Shown piece after piece: positions 11,969-18,561 of a stretch of 64,000 nt of DNA (position 1 is its first letter; the number at the start of each line of letters is the position of its first letter). Both the position numbers and the translations under genes were made by a program. The notes beneath the pieces are model-generated. The model did no database searches and was not told the origin of the DNA. It was given only the letters and a program-made list of their open reading frames with translations. The DNA is from Neorhizobium galegae. GTDB lineage: Bacteria > Pseudomonadota > Alphaproteobacteria > Rhizobiales > Rhizobiaceae. Location of the stretch: the NCBI RefSeq assembly GCF_017877055.1, contig NZ_JAGIPG010000001.1:744001-808000 (forward strand), written 5' to 3'.

Positions 11969-12253
11969 TCAGGTGCGGCGGCCGACTTCGCGCGCCAGAT
12001 CCTCGAAACAGAATTTGGTGCCCTGTTCGCTCGCCTCATTGGCCAGAAGCAGGAGCCGGATCGGGAACGCGATCGCCTTCTGGTGGGAGGTCGAGACGGC
12101 CAGCGGCTTGTCGTCGGCGAGCACGGTGCGTTCTGCGGCCTGCAGGGCACCCTGGATCTCTTCATGGGAGAGGACGCCTTTTTCGACCAGGAGCCGGTTG
12201 ATCGCGGCAACCGCGAGATAGAGGCCTTCGAGCTGCGGATTGGCGGTGTTCAT
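11969..12253 (-). CDS. conserved small protein coupled to NDH-2
   Basis: 94-aa soluble protein (starts MNTANPQLEGLYLAVAAINR; ends LAREVGRRT) without a domain I recognise. Its ATG (12251-12253) overlaps the ndh stop in an ATGA arrangement, so it is translated by coupling with NDH-2. Helix-rich, with the segment AFPIRLLLLANEASEQGT. The longer frame running back into ndh is a shadow. Function may be tied to respiration or stress because it shares the ndh EcfG-type promoter (inference). Confidence 0.72.
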   Translation of the reverse strand: MNTANPQLEGLYLAVAAINRLLVEKGVLSHEEIQGALQAAERTVLADDKPLAVSTSHQKAIAFPIRLLLLANEASEQGTKFCFEDLAREVGRRT

Positions 12254-13575
12254 GTCTCGGTCCTTTGCGTGGAAGACGGAACGGAAGTGGCGGCATTTTC
12301 GTCGATCAGTCGGGCGCCGCGCTGCTGGGTCAGGTAACGCCAGATCCATTGCACGCTGACGAGCAGGCGCTTTTCGAAATTGACGAGCAGGTAGACATGG
12401 ACGAGCGCCCAGAGGAACCAGGCGAGGCGGCCCTTCAGCGTCCACTTGCCGAAGTCGAAGATTGCCGCATCGCGGCCGATGACGGCCGTATTGCCGCGAT
12501 TCTGGAAGCGGAACGGCTCGGCCGGCTTGCCGTCGAGCAGTTTCGCCCGCAGCGCCTTGCCGAGATATTGGCCCTGCTGCTTGGCGACCTGGGCGAGGGC
12601 CGGCAGCGGCTTGCCGTCTTCGGCGAGGCCCAGCGCCGTATCTCCTATCGCAAAAATATCCGGAAAGCCGGTGATGGAGAGGTCCGGCTCGACCGGAATG
12701 CGGCCGCCTGCCTTTCCTTCGATGCCCAGCCATTTGGCCGAGGGCGCCGCTTTGACGCCCGCACCCCAGATGACGCAGCTGGTGCGGAAACGCTGCGAGC
12801 CGGCGACCACTTCGTCCTTGGTGACCGATTCGACGGAGAGATTGGTCATCACCTCGACGCCCGCTTTTTCGAGCGCCTTCATGGCGTATTGGGTGAGGTT
12901 GTCGGGAAAGGCGGCGAGGATTTTCGGGCCGGCCTCGATGAGGATGACCCGCATGTGATCCGGCTCCAGTTTGCGGAAGTCGCGGGCGATCATGAAATGG
13001 CCGAGTTCGGCGATCGCGCCGGCCATTTCGACACCGGTCGGACCGCCGCCGATGATGATGCTGGTGAGCAGCGCCTTCTTTTCTTCCGGATCGTGGGAAA
13101 GCTCGGCCTTCTCGAAGGCGAGCAGCAGGCGCTGGCGGATCAGCCGGGCCTCGTGAATGGTCTTCAGGCCAGGCGCCCAGGCGCGCCAGTCGTCATGGCC
13201 GAAATAATTGTAGTCCGAGCCGGTGGCGATGACGAGGCGGTCGTATGGGACCGACGTGCCGTTGTCGAGCGCCACGGTCCTGGCGATCGGATCGACGCCG
13301 GTGACTTCGGCCAGCATGACGTTGATGTTCCTGAAGCGCCCGAGCGTCCGGCGGATCGGCTCGGAAATATCGGCGGGAGACAGTGCGGCGGTCGCGACCT
13401 GATAAAGGAGCGGCTGGAAGAGATTGTGGTTGCGCCGGTCGATGACGGTGACGTCGATGGCGCTGTTGCCGAGCGCGCCGGCCGTCGCAAGCCCGCCGAA
13501 ACCGGCGCCGACGATGACGACCCGCGGCAGTTTTGTTTGTCCTGTCGTGCCGTTCTGGAAAGCCTTGCCAGCCAT
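12250..13575 (-). CDS. ndh: type II NADH dehydrogenase (NDH-2)
   Basis: FAD-dependent NADH:quinone oxidoreductase, 441 aa, attached to the inner membrane without proton pumping. FAD-binding VIVGAGFGGL (about 20-29) and the NAD-binding IIIGGGPTGVEMAG (about 166-179) are intact; AIGDTA contributes to the second FAD site and AQVAKQQGQY is typical of NDH-2. The C-terminal helix region (LAWFLWALVHVYLLV) fits membrane anchoring. Start ATG 13575. A GGAAC-N17-GTT site at 13648-13624 on this strand suggests stress-sigma control. The 94-aa gene follows by overlap. Confidence 0.92.
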   Translation of the reverse strand: MAGKAFQNGTTGQTKLPRVVIVGAGFGGLATAGALGNSAIDVTVIDRRNHNLFQPLLYQVATAALSPADISEPIRRTLGRFRNINVMLAEVTGVDPIARTVALDNGTSVPYDRLVIATGSDYNYFGHDDWRAWAPGLKTIHEARLIRQRLLLAFEKAELSHDPEEKKALLTSIIIGGGPTGVEMAGAIAELGHFMIARDFRKLEPDHMRVILIEAGPKILAAFPDNLTQYAMKALEKAGVEVMTNLSVESVTKDEVVAGSQRFRTSCVIWGAGVKAAPSAKWLGIEGKAGGRIPVEPDLSITGFPDIFAIGDTALGLAEDGKPLPALAQVAKQQGQYLGKALRAKLLDGKPAEPFRFQNRGNTAVIGRDAAIFDFGKWTLKGRLAWFLWALVHVYLLVNFEKRLLVSVQWIWRYLTQQRGARLIDENAATSVPSSTQRTET

Positions 13576-13648: not shown

Positions 13649-13662
13649 GACGTGTTTCACCG

Positions 13663-13687
13663 GAACCTTTTACGCCTGTCGCCGTTC
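13663..13687 (+). promoter_or_regulatory. candidate EcfG-type promoter for twin 24-aa peptides
   Basis: GGAAC (13663-13667), 16 bases, CGTT (13684-13687): an exact match to the alphaproteobacterial EcfG consensus GGAAC-N16-17-CGTT. It lies 28 bases before the first 24-aa peptide ATG. Confidence 0.68.
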
Positions 13688-13715
13688 AATTTCACGACAT
13701 CAATAGGAGAACGTC

Positions 13716-13790
13716 ATGAACAGCATCGTTTGGTTGGTCGGCGCGGTCGTCATCGTCATCGCCGTTCTGAATCTCGTCGGATTTGCCTAA
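13716..13790 (+). CDS. 24-aa single-span membrane miniprotein, copy 1
   Basis: A 25-codon frame (stop TAA) preceded by AGGAGA at 13705-13710. The peptide begins MNSIVWLVGAVVIVIAV and ends LVGFA: an almost wholly hydrophobic helix with no charged residue, so it should sit in the inner membrane. It is a paralogue of the next small gene: the first 14 residues are identical, while the DNA differs at many third positions, which implies selection on the protein. Function unknown. An EcfG-type promoter immediately upstream suggests stress induction. Confidence 0.7.
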   Translation: MNSIVWLVGAVVIVIAVLNLVGFA

Positions 13791-13854
13791 TTTCTCGAAT
13801 GAATCCAATCGGAAGCATTGCTTTCATCTGAATCGAACTGAAGAGGAGACAGTC

Positions 13855-13929
13855 ATGAACAGCATCGTATGGCTCGTTGGAGCCGTCGTCATCGTTCTCG
13901 CCGTCCTGTCCTTCATCGGCATAGGCTGA
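13855..13929 (+). CDS. 24-aa single-span membrane miniprotein, copy 2
   Basis: A second 25-codon frame (stop TGA), 64 bases after copy 1, with GAGGAGA at 13843-13849. It begins MNSIVWLVGAVVIVLAV and ends FIGIG, the same length and hydrophobic pattern as copy 1, but encoded with different synonymous codons. A strong hairpin terminator follows at 13958-13996, so both copies form one short transcription unit. No homologue with known function comes to mind. Confidence 0.7.
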   Translation: MNSIVWLVGAVVIVLAVLSFIGIG

Positions 13930-13957
13930 TCGGTGAGACGCAAAGCCGGAGGATATC

Positions 13958-13996
13958 GACAAGGCGCCGTCTCCCAAGGATCGGCGCCTTGTCTTT
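13958..13996 (+). terminator. terminator after twin miniproteins
   Basis: Perfect 12-bp inverted repeat GACAAGGCGCCG (13958-13969) and CGGCGCCTTGTC (13982-13993), 12-base loop, then TTT. It ends the 24-aa peptide unit and also lies beyond the treY stop on the other strand. Confidence 0.75.
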
Positions 13997-14023
13997 GCGT
14001 GGTTCATTTCGACAGGGCGGCCG

Positions 14024-16567
14024 CTATTCGGCCAGCAGGAGCGCGAAGGGGTGGTCGCCGAACACCGAGTTGACGGCGATGCGATCCTTGGGGTCGGTGG
14101 CCTTGCCGGTGCAGACATCGCGGTAGCGGCGATGTCCCAGCCGTTCGGGCAGGGCTATCTCCGTTTCCGCCCAGCGCTCGGACCGGGACGGCGCAAGGCC
14201 TGCGTGGAGCGCGCTGAACACGAGACGCGGGGCGACGACGATGAAGGCGTCGTCCATGTCGGCGCGGGCGAAGGCGATGACGTTGTCGGCGCGCTTGCCC
14301 GATGCCCTGAGAGGCAGATATTCTCCCCGGCGAAACAGCGTAGGCGCCTCCTGGCGAACGCGCAGCAGGTTAGCGATGACATGCTGTTTCAGCCGGCCGC
14401 TCTGCCATTCCTCCTCGGCGGTGGAGGCGAGCTTTTCCTTCTCCATCAGCCGTTGCTGCAGCATGCCGAAATCCGGTTCGCGGCGGTTGTCAGGGTCGAC
14501 CAGGCTCAGGTCGAGGCTCTCGCTTCCCTGGTAGATATCGGGTACGCCCGGCGCCGTCAGCTTGATGATCGTCTGGGTGATGCCGTTCACCAGGCCGGCG
14601 CCGATGAAGGGTTTCAGGGTATCTGTGAAGTCCGCCAGGAAGGCCTGGTTGCCGGGGGAGAGGAGTGCGCTGGCGTAGTCGCGAACCGCCTTCTCGTAGG
14701 TCCCGTTGCCATCGCTCCAGTTGGTGCGCAGCTTTGCCTCGCGCAACGCCTTTTCGACATAGCCGAGGAAGCGCGTCTCGAGCGCCTCGAGGCCCTCCGC
14801 ATCTTCCGGGTGGAGATCGTTCGGCCATGCACCGGCGAGCGCCTGGTAGAGCATCCATTCGACCGCCGGTTCCGGCGCAGGGCCGTCATCGAGCACCTGA
14901 ATGGCTTGGCTGTTGATTCTGCGCCAGCGATCCACAGCGTCCGCCCAGAGTCCAGGCACCTCGGTGATCACATAAAGCCGCGCGCGGGCATCCTCGCCGC
15001 GCTTGGTGTCGTGGGTCGAAGTACCCGACAGCGCGTCGGGCTGCCTTTCCAGCCGCGTCTGCATTTCCGCGTGGAAACGGTCGAGCGAAAAGCGGCGGGG
15101 CAGGGGCTCGGCTCCGACCTCGTTCAGCGCGAGCGCCATGTGCTGCCGAAAGAACAGCGTGTCCTCCACCGATTTCGCCATCAGCGGGCCGGTAAGCTGC
15201 TGGAACCGGGTGCGGAAGATCGACGCCTTGCCGGCCGCCGCCTGTTCGACATCGCCGACCAGGATGCGTTCGAGGAAGGCGAGCGCCGCATCCTCCGGCG
15301 GGTTCGGGCCGTTGCGCACCTTGTCGAGAACCTTTGCCAGCATCTCCCGGCCCTCGGGCGGAATGCCCTCCCGCGTGCCATAGGTGCGGTAGACCGGGAA
15401 GGCGACCAGCAGTTCGCGCAGCGCTCCCTTAACGGACGCTTCCGACAGCGCGGACTCGCGGTCCTCCACCGGCTGGATCTGCATGGCCAGATCGAGCAGC
15501 GTCGAGACCTCACCAGCGAAATTGTTGTCGGCCATCAGCAACTTTGCGGCGCGCAATTCAGCTTCCATGTCGACCGGTTGGCCGGTAATCTTTTCATAGG
15601 CGCTGCGCAGTTCGTCCAGCTTGCGGCCGTCAACAAGGGCATCGCTGACGGCTGCGATAAATTCGTAACCGGTGGTGCCGGAGATCGGCCAGTCCGTCGG
15701 GATCTGCTCGCTCTCGCCAAGAATCTTTTCGACGGTGATGTAGCAATCCGTCCCGGCCTCGTGCCGCAGGCGTTCGAGATAGGCTTTCGGGTCGGCAAGG
15801 CCATCGACATGATCGACGCGCAGGCCGTCCACCTTGCCGCTATGGACGAGTTCGAGGATCAGCCGGTGGGTATCGTCGAACACGGTGCCGTCCTCCACCC
15901 GCATGCCGGCAAGCCCGGTGATCTCGAAGAAACGGCGGTAGGAGAGTTCGCGGGGCGCATCCCGCCAGGACATCAGCCGATAGGGCTGCTGGTCGTGCAG
16001 TTTGGCAATCGCCGCGCGATCGGCGACCTTCAGCACCTCTTCCTGATGGCCTGCGTAACTCGCCGGTGCCAGCGGATAGAGCGTGTCGTAGTAGGCGAGG
16101 GCCGGCTTGCCGGTCTTCGGATCGGCCTTGACGGAAATCCCCCCGGCTTCCAGTACCTTCTCGAAGGTATCGCCGAGGAAGGGCAGGGTCAGGGATCTGC
16201 TCCAGTCGATATCGAAATGGCGGGCATATCTGCTCTTCTCGCCGTTTTCGACGACATCGCGCCACCAGGGATTTTCGAGCGATGCCGCCATGTGGTTCGG
16301 GACGATGTCGATGATCAGGCCAAGGCCCTCGGACTTCAATGCCTTCACCATCCGCTCGAACCCGTCGCGTCCGCCGATCGCAGGCTCGATCTCGTTGGCA
16401 TCGGTCACGTCGTAGCCGTGGGTGGAGCCGGTCGTGGCGGTAAAGATCGGCGAGGCGTAGAGATGGCTGATCCCGAGCCGCTTCAGATAGGGCACAAGGG
16501 CAGCGGCCCGGTCGAAGGTCATGCCGTTGCGGAACTGGATGCGATAGGTGGCGGTCGGAATCATCAT
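14024..16567 (-). CDS. treY: malto-oligosyltrehalose synthase
   Basis: TreY, 847 aa, converts the reducing end of maltodextrin to a terminal trehalose unit. GH13 signatures are visible: HGYDVTD, IIDIVPNHMA (region I), LRVDHVDGLADP (nucleophile Asp), YITVEKILG (acid/base Glu) and GTSTHDTKRGED. The start ATG (16567) overlaps the treZ stop (ATGA), so the two genes are coupled; the open frame upstream of it is a shadow inside treZ. It works with TreZ, which releases trehalose, an osmo- and desiccation protectant. A debranching enzyme (TreX) is not in this window. Confidence 0.95.
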   Translation of the reverse strand: MMIPTATYRIQFRNGMTFDRAAALVPYLKRLGISHLYASPIFTATTGSTHGYDVTDANEIEPAIGGRDGFERMVKALKSEGLGLIIDIVPNHMAASLENPWWRDVVENGEKSRYARHFDIDWSRSLTLPFLGDTFEKVLEAGGISVKADPKTGKPALAYYDTLYPLAPASYAGHQEEVLKVADRAAIAKLHDQQPYRLMSWRDAPRELSYRRFFEITGLAGMRVEDGTVFDDTHRLILELVHSGKVDGLRVDHVDGLADPKAYLERLRHEAGTDCYITVEKILGESEQIPTDWPISGTTGYEFIAAVSDALVDGRKLDELRSAYEKITGQPVDMEAELRAAKLLMADNNFAGEVSTLLDLAMQIQPVEDRESALSEASVKGALRELLVAFPVYRTYGTREGIPPEGREMLAKVLDKVRNGPNPPEDAALAFLERILVGDVEQAAAGKASIFRTRFQQLTGPLMAKSVEDTLFFRQHMALALNEVGAEPLPRRFSLDRFHAEMQTRLERQPDALSGTSTHDTKRGEDARARLYVITEVPGLWADAVDRWRRINSQAIQVLDDGPAPEPAVEWMLYQALAGAWPNDLHPEDAEGLEALETRFLGYVEKALREAKLRTNWSDGNGTYEKAVRDYASALLSPGNQAFLADFTDTLKPFIGAGLVNGITQTIIKLTAPGVPDIYQGSESLDLSLVDPDNRREPDFGMLQQRLMEKEKLASTAEEEWQSGRLKQHVIANLLRVRQEAPTLFRRGEYLPLRASGKRADNVIAFARADMDDAFIVVAPRLVFSALHAGLAPSRSERWAETEIALPERLGHRRYRDVCTGKATDPKDRIAVNSVFGDHPFALLLAE

Positions 16568-18375
16568 GCGGCGTCTCCCGCGGTTCCGGCGCGGACGAGG
16601 ACCGAGTTCGCCGGCAGGTCCTTCGCCTGTTCGGGCCATGCGAAGATCACCTTGCCGGGCAGGTCCGGCAGCGCCTGCGCCTTCTCGCCGATATTGATCG
16701 CCATCGAGATCGTGCCTTTTGGAAAAGTCCACGATACGGCAAGGAACCCCTTGTCCGTCCTCAGCACCTTGCCGGAGCGACCGCTCGCGGAGCCGAGCAG
16801 GGGAACAACGATCTCCTGCCGCAGCTTCAGGAGCGTCCTCGTCAATTCCAGCCAGTCCTTGCCGTCCGCCGAATCCAGCTTCTTCCAGTCGAGCCGGGAG
16901 ACATCGAAGGTCTTTCTGGCGTTCGGATCGGGAACCGTCTCGCCTTCGTGGCCCGCATGGCCCTCGAATTCCTTGCGGCGGCCATCGCGCACGGCTTTCG
17001 CGAGATCGCCATGGAAATCGGTGAAGAACAGGAAGGGGTTGGTCTCACCATATTCCTCGCCCATGAAGAGGAGCGGGATATGCGGCGAGAGGAGAAGCAT
17101 GGCGAGCAGTGGCTTGACCCTGTCAGCGCCTGCCAATTCGATCAGCCTTTCGCCTTGCGCACGGTTGCCCACCTGGTCGTGGTTCTGGATGAAATCCACG
17201 AAGGCGACCGGTGGCTGATCCAGGCTCGAAACGCCGCGTTTTTCCCCGGTCTGCGGCGAGACTTCGCCCTGATAGGCAAAACCTTCGGCGAGCACCCGCG
17301 CCACCAGCTTTTCCGGTTCCCTGGCGAAATCCTTGTAATAGGCATGCGTCTCGCCGGTCGCGAAGACATGGACGGCGTTGTGGAGGTCGTCGTTCCATTC
17401 GGCGGTGAAGAGCGGTGCCTTGCCATCCTCGTCGCGTGGATGCAGGAAAGTGACGTTGCGGGCGTCTTCCGTCGTCAGATGGATGGCGCGCTCCGGGATT
17501 TCGGCGCGGATGCGCTCGGCGATCTCGACCAGTACATGTTTTTCGGATGAATCCTCGATCTGGTCGATGGCGTCGAAACGCAGCCCGTCGAGGTGGAATT
17601 CCTCCAGCCAGTAGAGCGCGCATTCGGTGATGTAACGCCGCACCGGCTCGACGTCATAGGCGATTGCAGCGCCCCAGGGCGTCATCTTCTCCTTGTGGAA
17701 GAAGGTCGGCGCCAGCAGCGGCAGATAGTTTCCTTCCGGGCCGAAATGGTTGAGCACGATGTCGAGCACCACCGTCAGCCCATGACCGTGGGCGGCATCG
17801 ATGAAGGCCTTGAAATCCTCCGGCGGGCCGTAGGCGGCATGCGGCGCATAGAGGAGCACGCCGTCATAACCCCAGCCACGGTTTCCGCCGAAATGGGCGA
17901 CCGGCATGACCTCGATCATGGTGACGCCGAGGTCTGCGAGATAGGGCAACTTTTCGATCGCGGCGCGGAACGTGCCTTCCTCGGTAAAGGTGCCGATATG
18001 GATTTCGTAGACGACCGTTTCCTCCCACGGCCGGCCCTGCCATTCGGGGTGCTGCCAAGTGTAGCTGGTCGGATCGATTACCAGCGAGGGACCGTCGATG
18101 CGGTCCTTCTGGCCGCGCGAGGCGGGATCGGGGACGACCATGCCGTCGGCGAGCACATAGGCATATTCGGCGCCGGGAGCGATGCCGGTGGCGAGGAGCT
18201 CAAACCAGCCGTCATTGCTGCGGCTCATCTCGGTATCGTCGCCGTTCAGCCGCAGCGTCACGGTCTCCTGGCCCGGTGCCCAGAGTCGGAACCGTACCTC
18301 GCCGGCAGCGACATATTCGGCACCCCAAGTCTTTGGAAACGCACGAAACTCGGTGACGGTATTCAATTCCGACAT
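16564..18375 (-). CDS. treZ: malto-oligosyltrehalose trehalohydrolase
   Basis: TreZ, 603 aa, hydrolyses the bond that frees trehalose from maltooligosyl trehalose. An N-terminal carbohydrate-binding domain (VRFRLWAPGQETVTL) is followed by the GH13 barrel: VLDIVLNHFGPEG, LDGLRFDAIDQI (nucleophile Asp), LTTEDARNV (Glu) and FIQNHDQVGNRAQGER. Start ATG 18375 is chosen over the far-upstream 18483 because a GGAAC-N17-GTT stress promoter lies at 18432-18408, between the two. Cytoplasmic; coupled to treY. Confidence 0.95.
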   Translation of the reverse strand: MSELNTVTEFRAFPKTWGAEYVAAGEVRFRLWAPGQETVTLRLNGDDTEMSRSNDGWFELLATGIAPGAEYAYVLADGMVVPDPASRGQKDRIDGPSLVIDPTSYTWQHPEWQGRPWEETVVYEIHIGTFTEEGTFRAAIEKLPYLADLGVTMIEVMPVAHFGGNRGWGYDGVLLYAPHAAYGPPEDFKAFIDAAHGHGLTVVLDIVLNHFGPEGNYLPLLAPTFFHKEKMTPWGAAIAYDVEPVRRYITECALYWLEEFHLDGLRFDAIDQIEDSSEKHVLVEIAERIRAEIPERAIHLTTEDARNVTFLHPRDEDGKAPLFTAEWNDDLHNAVHVFATGETHAYYKDFAREPEKLVARVLAEGFAYQGEVSPQTGEKRGVSSLDQPPVAFVDFIQNHDQVGNRAQGERLIELAGADRVKPLLAMLLLSPHIPLLFMGEEYGETNPFLFFTDFHGDLAKAVRDGRRKEFEGHAGHEGETVPDPNARKTFDVSRLDWKKLDSADGKDWLELTRTLLKLRQEIVVPLLGSASGRSGKVLRTDKGFLAVSWTFPKGTISMAINIGEKAQALPDLPGKVIFAWPEQAKDLPANSVLVRAGTAGDAA

Positions 18376-18407
18376 GCTGGCCAGCCCCTGGTTGAGAGAG
18401 ACCGGCA

Positions 18408-18432
18408 AACGGGCGAAGTCGCTTCGGGTTCC
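18408..18432 (-). promoter_or_regulatory. candidate EcfG-type promoter for treZY
   Basis: On the minus strand GGAAC (18432-18428), 16 bases, CGTT (18411-18408), exactly the EcfG consensus, 33 bases before treZ. Trehalose synthesis is a classical target of the alphaproteobacterial general stress response. Confidence 0.68.
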
Positions 18433-18561
18433 ATTGTGGGGCGCTGGCGCAATAAAATTACGCGGGGGAGCAACAAATAACAAGTTCCAGGGAGTGGTCG
18501 GCGGACCGGTTCAGGCCTAATTTAGCACTCATGCAAGCGGTTTCGGGGAGGAGATCAGTGC

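Follow-up and report, generated by a model that had tools for sequence, protein, structure and literature searches.

Tandem Genes for Predicted 24-Residue Membrane Peptides behind a Putative General-Stress Promoter in Neorhizobium galegae

Introduction

Stress-induced small membrane proteins are described in PMC12719787 as common, with a known job for few of them; the same text reports that YohP of E. coli (27 aa) lowers membrane fluidity and potential and protects under stress. PMC7549839 adds that YohP dimerises through glycine 15. For Sinorhizobium meliloti, PMC10117765 describes SEP6, a peptide of fewer than 30 aa with a predicted transmembrane helix and conservation in Hyphomicrobiales, whose tagged form was recovered for the most part in the P100 fraction, which contains membranes and ribosomes.

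The locus considered here lies in a stretch of 64,000 nt of the Neorhizobium galegae genome (contig NZ_JAGIPG010000001.1, positions 744,001 to 808,000), which was analysed as a whole and is called the window below. It encodes two 24-residue peptides in tandem. As far as analogy goes, YohP is the nearest functional analogue of these peptides, being no homologue by profile. Judging from the descriptions of YohP, both are single-span miniproteins of similar size with a central glycine and with stress or stationary-phase expression, the membrane span and the expression being predicted for the window family. In contrast to YohP, the window family often precedes one membrane-protein gene, and in many Alphaproteobacteria it stands behind an EcfG-type promoter. 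KdpF, CydX, AcrZ and MgtS are small proteins that serve membrane proteins as accessory subunits or regulators, and here too the likeness lies in a single-helix peptide that is encoded beside a large membrane protein or acts on it. Unlike in these systems, the candidate partner family is undescribed, its physical association with the peptide is a prediction, and in Neorhizobium the peptide gene does not adjoin the partner gene. SEP6, compared by its description, may be a member of the window family (A-type) or of the second peptide family presented below (B-type).

Organization of the Locus

The features of the pair and its surroundings are as follows.

12250–13575, opposite strand to the pair: NDH-2-type NADH dehydrogenase
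13662..13686, plus strand: predicted EcfG-type promoter GGAAC-N16-CGTT, GGAACCTTTTACGCCTGTCGCCGTT, exact, starting 54 nt 5' of the copy-1 ATG
13705..13709, plus strand: ribosome-binding site AGGAG of copy 1, 6 nt 5' of the ATG (from the sequence)
13716–13790, plus strand: copy 1 ORF, 24 aa, MNSIVWLVGAVVIVIAVLNLVGFA, stop TAA (from the sequence and its conservation)
13844..13848, plus strand: ribosome-binding site AGGAG of copy 2, 6 nt 5' of the ATG (from the sequence)
13855–13929, plus strand: copy 2 ORF, 24 aa, MNSIVWLVGAVVIVLAVLSFIGIG, stop TGA (from the sequence and its conservation)
13958..13997, plus strand: terminator-like hairpin, 12-bp stem GACAAGGCGCCG/CGGCGCCTTGTC followed by TTTG (from RNA folding of 13930–14010)
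14024–16732 and 16564–18483, opposite strand to the pair: two alpha-amylase-domain proteins

A preliminary description made from the letters alone had reported two 25-codon frames with the same first 14 residues in different codons, each with its own ribosome site, and this proved accurate. Residues 1–14 of copy 1 and copy 2 are identical, codons 5, 7, 8, 9, 10 and 14 within them differ (6/14), and an AGGAG stands at the same distance before each ATG. Similar purine-rich sites precede the orthologues. The strong terminator of the same description held up in part: the RNA of 13930–14010 folds with −36 kcal/mol (z −3.4) and has a G+C-rich stem, but its T-run is short and the hairpin is absent from the list of the consensus terminator scan. 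Hairpins within 80 nt 3' of copy 2 were found at most, though not all, of 27 folded Neorhizobium loci.

Since the flanking genes lie on the opposite strand and the pair has a promoter and a hairpin of its own, it looks like a self-contained unit. The alpha-amylase-domain neighbours are presumably the trehalose enzymes TreY and TreZ, as we assume from gene order. No Rfam family reached the gathering threshold anywhere in the window, and no further copies beyond these two were found in the genome at E < 1e-3. Chance short frames are abundant, with 120 ORFs of at least 20 aa overlapping 10 kb.

Conservation and Selection in Neorhizobium

The peptide is conserved throughout the genus: a match was present in 57/57 Neorhizobium genomes. 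Judged by match coordinates, the arrangement is tandem in 43/57; all 14 remaining genomes retain the copy-1 type with the promoter starting 53–56 nt 5' of the ATG, and several genomes of the genus carry extra copies at other places. The preliminary description had proposed selection at the protein level, with a Ka/Ks comparison as the check. The calculation bears this out, giving dN/dS values of 0.051 for copy 1 (27 distinct sequences of the genus) and 0.071 for copy 2 (25 distinct sequences), computed by summing pairwise differences with kinship ignored. Both copies are thus under purifying selection. Within one genome, copy 1 and copy 2 differ by 0.63 per synonymous site and 0.16 per non-synonymous site, which indicates that the duplication is old and that selection holds both versions. 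Taken together, conservation gives good support to the reading of both ORFs as real genes.

The Peptide Family

Homologues in related genomes, whose absence would by its own criterion have refuted the preliminary description, were readily found. The family has the consensus MNxIIYIVGLVVIVLAILSFxGLR and members in Alpha-, Beta- and Gammaproteobacteria. The profile search (E < 1e-3) was positive for 102/397 genomes of the order, 21/318 of the class (the window's own genome included) and 35/329 of the phylum, 11 of these outside the class; with such fractions, the family is patchy beyond a few groups. Outside Neorhizobium the tandem arrangement is absent in most cases.

A degenerate pattern, which covers residues 1–14 only and favours members beginning with MN, gave at least 117 loci over the named genomes. 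The matches listed include loci of Rhizobium, Mesorhizobium, Microvirga, Bosea, Bradyrhizobium, Rhodobacteraceae, Phenylobacterium, Belnapia and Reyranella as well as of Polaromonas, Azoarcus, Accumulibacter, Pseudomonas, Halomonas, Marinobacter and Thioalkalivibrio. In the first 80 of these at least 117 loci, 82/83 pattern matches proved to be free-standing frames whose stop codon follows residue 24 or 22, a length that the pattern itself does not impose. One match (L124) is false, with a stop codon inside the pattern. The single-sequence family search (123/247 at E <= 1) takes in chance matches inside long frames.

In total, 274 non-redundant members were collected over 251 loci; 258 of them are exactly 24 aa long and 264 start with ATG. 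Comparison of 148 distinct 24-aa sequences revealed that M1, G9, V12 and G22 are invariant and that position 6 is Tyr or Trp. Exceptions to this invariance exist in other members, for example a changed V12 in a second copy at L303. The absence of charged residues, noted in the preliminary description, is true of both window peptides but not of the family at large, as most relatives end in Arg (97/148 distinct sequences). No significant helical face was found, as shown by the periodicity of conservation (permutation p 0.32) and of side-chain volume (p 0.11).

The proposal of a single-span membrane peptide of an undescribed family is supported: no Pfam or NCBIfam model scored above its cut-off for the window pair and 29 further members. 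Weak profile matches to DUF3094, a plectrovirus transmembrane protein and MPN207a were rejected as matches of composition. Plasmid searches with two peptides returned nothing, which says little because the BLAST low-complexity filter may mask such peptides. Twelve exact peptide strings gave no match in the literature texts searched, and the literature listings showed nothing specific on such a peptide under EcfG. As far as these searches go, the family is undescribed. It appears to be new, and so do the protein encoded with it in other genera and the interchangeable second peptide, both described below. The kind, a membrane miniprotein, is known.

Promoter and General Stress Response

PMC3892343 gives GGAAC-N16-CGTT as the consensus for EcfG1 of Rhizobium etli and describes EcfG as exclusive to Alphaproteobacteria. 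A consensus promoter of this form had been placed before the pair in the preliminary description, and an exact copy stands at 13662–13686. The whole window contains 3 motifs of this class against 2.06 expected, so that the single site is not significant alone, whereas its conservation is. The promoter is conserved in 44/44 Neorhizobium genomes examined, starting 53–59 nt 5' of the ATG; these were 30 genomes plus the 14 without the tandem, with the 13 other tandem genomes left out.

Across the family, 107/272 members have an EcfG-type motif in the 150 nt upstream, compared with 182/12450 background windows (random windows from the same loci, true sites included; kinship ignored), with spacers of 16 nt (80 members), 17 nt (26) and 15 nt (1). 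At the named loci among the matches listed, the motif precedes 48/90 alpha, 0/14 beta and 0/13 gamma members. Its absence from the 27 beta and gamma members is expected if EcfG is exclusive to Alphaproteobacteria. NepR, the anti-sigma factor of EcfG, scored over the cut-off in 14/20 peptide-positive and 3/60 peptide-negative alphaproteobacterial genomes other than the window's own; when only genomes of at least 3.3 Mb were compared, the counts were 13/19 with the peptide and 2/19 without it (p 6e-4), kinship being ignored in both comparisons. This co-occurrence with NepR–EcfG fits the alpha members but not the beta and gamma members. In Beta- and Gammaproteobacteria the peptide gene must be driven by something other than EcfG. 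For the window pair, the assignment of the promoter as a general-stress promoter of EcfG type is well supported by the sequence comparisons.

Several other upstream elements were observed. A minus-strand GGAAC-N16-CGTT at 18408–18432 of the window, near the start of the TreZ-like alpha-amylase-domain gene (16564–18483), is possibly an EcfG promoter for the trehalose genes. At beta loci including Polaromonas, CTGAC...CTACA and CGTAC[AG]G-type blocks recur by eye about 75–110 nt 5' of the ATG (L087, L113, L118, L138, L152, L188, L196; and L099, L156, L163, L180); these blocks may mark the promoter of a stress regulon in Betaproteobacteria. In Rhodobacteraceae (L100, L140, L141, L193) and in a Thioalkalivibrio MAG (L119), a recurrent CTGATCCATGTTG block was seen by eye about 75–95 nt 5' of the ATG, and these members have no visible EcfG-type motif in the stretch shown.

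The Candidate Partner Protein and a Second Peptide

In many other genera the peptide gene is linked in an operon-like manner to a gene for a membrane protein of about 300 aa, called YVDW here. It can be recognized by a conserved N-terminal motif in the region of YVDWxAIxAGAVxAAAxS and by GGYxxGRxR, likewise conserved. The YVDW gene is directly 3', on the same strand, of 47 peptide genes, in 45/102 peptide-positive genomes of the order and in 12 families; in these 47 pairs the YVDW match begins 0–81 nt past the peptide match. Over the genomes of the order, both were found in 62, the peptide only in 40, the partner only in 58 and neither in 237 (co-occurrence p 5e-14, kinship ignored). Methylocystis (L127) and Bradyrhizobium (L151) are examples of genera with the two-gene operon. 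The two genes are neighbours in Paracoccus, Loktanella, Reyranella and a Rhodospirillales genome as well.

None of the 9 YVDW proteins scanned passed a Pfam or NCBIfam cut-off. Modeling with AlphaFold2 from 7 sequences led to a moderate-confidence model (mean pLDDT 74) with four long helices, hydrophobic in the alignment by eye, and another helical part; no PDB fold matched it at E <= 0.001. In nine genomes of genus g204, family f11 (G474, G516, G536, G584, G597, G611, G623, G657 and G679), the YVDW match crosses one stop codon of varying kind, which may be an edge effect of the match start or gene decay.

The partner is not kept wherever the peptide is kept. In Neorhizobium no peptide–YVDW adjacency was found at the listed places, the window's own pair included; all 57 genomes have the peptide, 21/57 lack the partner at E <= 1e-10, and another 5 have only a distant or fragmentary YVDW match. 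In the order, likewise, 40 of the 102 peptide-positive genomes have no detectable partner. The partner stands at just 7 of the at least 117 loci of the pattern scan and, among the matches listed, at no beta or gamma locus. Clustering of 1367 neighbour ORFs, taken from a simple ORF caller, gave no universal gene neighbour; the clusters are mostly lineage-bound, a few spanning orders, and of the latter only YVDW (13 loci) lies mostly next to the peptide gene, 9 of its copies being downstream and on the same strand. Where A-type genes have no YVDW neighbour, varied genes come next, including MscS-like and DUF1206-like ones recognized by eye, not by profile. At L297, L308 and L311 (three genomes, one genus), a gene that by eye resembles an MscS-like mechanosensitive channel follows the A-type peptide.

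In the genome of the window the YVDW partner is encoded on another contig (G000:C2:1719846-1720730) and is preceded by a different peptide:

G000:C2 1720769–1720843 (L252), preceding the partner gene: B-type peptide, 25 aa, MGRGILLWLLGIPLPIVILLVLFMR

A GGAAC-N16-TGTT, one base off the EcfG consensus, precedes this locus. The B-type pattern MGRGILLWLLG[IV]P[IL]PI..., with a single hydrophobic stretch, came to light among the partner loci L252 and L253–L289, and no Pfam family covers it. The comparison covered 41 partner loci without an A-type peptide in front, 33 with close partners (>190 bits) and 8 with distant ones. A B-type peptide is encoded just upstream in 24/33 of the close-partner loci, the other 9 being without it, and in 0/8 of the distant ones; upstream of the 24, an EcfG-type motif is present in 8 and the TGTT variant in 3 more. 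With 25 aa, one hydrophobic stretch, a place before the YVDW protein and some EcfG-type motifs, the B-type resembles the A-type. It differs in that by eye it shares nothing with the A-type besides hydrophobicity and length, and that it sits beside the partner in the window's genome. The occurrence of two dissimilar tiny single-helix peptides in one place argues that this position calls for such a peptide.

Possible Function of the Peptides

Our preferred reading, which we put forward tentatively and a little short of calling it probable, is that the pair encodes general-stress membrane miniproteins that would pair with integral membrane proteins. According to it, the two genes would form a mini-operon that belongs to the general stress response of Alphaproteobacteria. 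Release of EcfG would lead to transcription from 13662–13686, provided that the site depends on this factor, and two paralogous 24-residue peptides would be translated, each predicted to insert into the inner membrane as one transmembrane helix. There, as small helices, they could pair with integral membrane proteins and tune how stable or how active these are under stress. In other genera the YVDW protein, whose gene comes directly after that of the peptide, would be the likeliest client. Neorhizobium has a duplicated peptide gene that does not adjoin the YVDW gene, so there the pair would work in trans; its target would be YVDW or some other membrane protein, and the two peptides might act as a mixed pair.

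This reading is favoured by the purifying selection on both copies and by the constant length of the peptides. Its stress-response part is favoured by the conserved promoter in Neorhizobium, the enrichment of EcfG-type motifs and the co-occurrence with NepR, and the partner part by the YVDW operon linkage (45/102 genomes) and by the B-type peptide in the same place. Against the partner model stand the partner-less genomes, the varied neighbours and the missing beta and gamma pairing, and against a fixed binding surface stands the lack of a significant helical face, which such a surface would predict. Because of the partner gaps and the non-periodic conservation, a fixed subunit of one client fails as an explanation for the window's pair; this leaves other clients or an action of the peptide on the membrane itself.

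The latter is the core of the main rival, a YohP-like reading, which we consider less likely than not: the peptides would accumulate under stress, oligomerise in the inner membrane, rigidify it and reduce the proton motive force, and the slower metabolism would protect the cell with no client at all. The size class and stress timing are alike, and the one central glycine through which YohP is reported to dimerise has a parallel in G9 and G22, neither of which varies among the 148 distinct sequences. Such a role would also account for the peptide in partner-less genomes and for the varied neighbours. However, a purely physical role has no obvious need for dN/dS values of 0.05–0.07 or for a recurring linkage to one membrane protein. 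With the YohP profile (PF25659 / NF011345), moreover, neither peptide was found at E <= 10 in its own genome, the lone match lying elsewhere (12.2 bits), and only 1/29 family members matched weakly (E 0.21 with Pfam, 0.53 with NCBIfam).

Three further readings were set aside as main explanations on the evidence against each. It is improbable that the tiny ORF is a cis-acting leader, with its translation serving a downstream membrane protein through ribosome coupling or by bringing the mRNA to the membrane. Gaps of −4 to +2 nt between the peptide stop and the partner match (L056, L068, L081, L084, L198) would suit this role, but behind the window's pair come a hairpin and, after it, opposite-strand genes, and the amino-acid sequence is kept in copies without a partner. 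A small hydrophobic single-span peptide in tandem copies is also a common look of type I toxins, which kill or arrest the cell and are restrained by an antisense RNA. Such a toxin is nevertheless very improbable here, given a match in 57/57 genomes of the genus, the stress promoter in 44/44 examined, no Rfam family at the gathering threshold in the window, and copies that have diverged with each under purifying selection. The probability that no gene exists, and that these are chance hydrophobic frames, for example inside a small stress-induced RNA, is practically negligible: very short frames are common (the 120 ORFs mentioned above), but dN/dS is 0.05–0.07 and the length and start are fixed across classes.

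To return to the preferred reading of partner miniproteins, a more specific form of it is possible, though on balance less than likely. The A-type and B-type peptides would be interchangeable helices of 24–25 residues in a modular stress device, acting as subunits of the undescribed four-helix membrane protein family, and the A-type of Neorhizobium would be a free, duplicated and possibly heteromeric regulator.

The family is very short and strongly conserved and is present in three classes of Proteobacteria, yet none of the members scanned matched a Pfam or NCBIfam model above cut-off. The YVDW gene pair, together with a second peptide in the same position, offers a direct handle on what such peptides bind.
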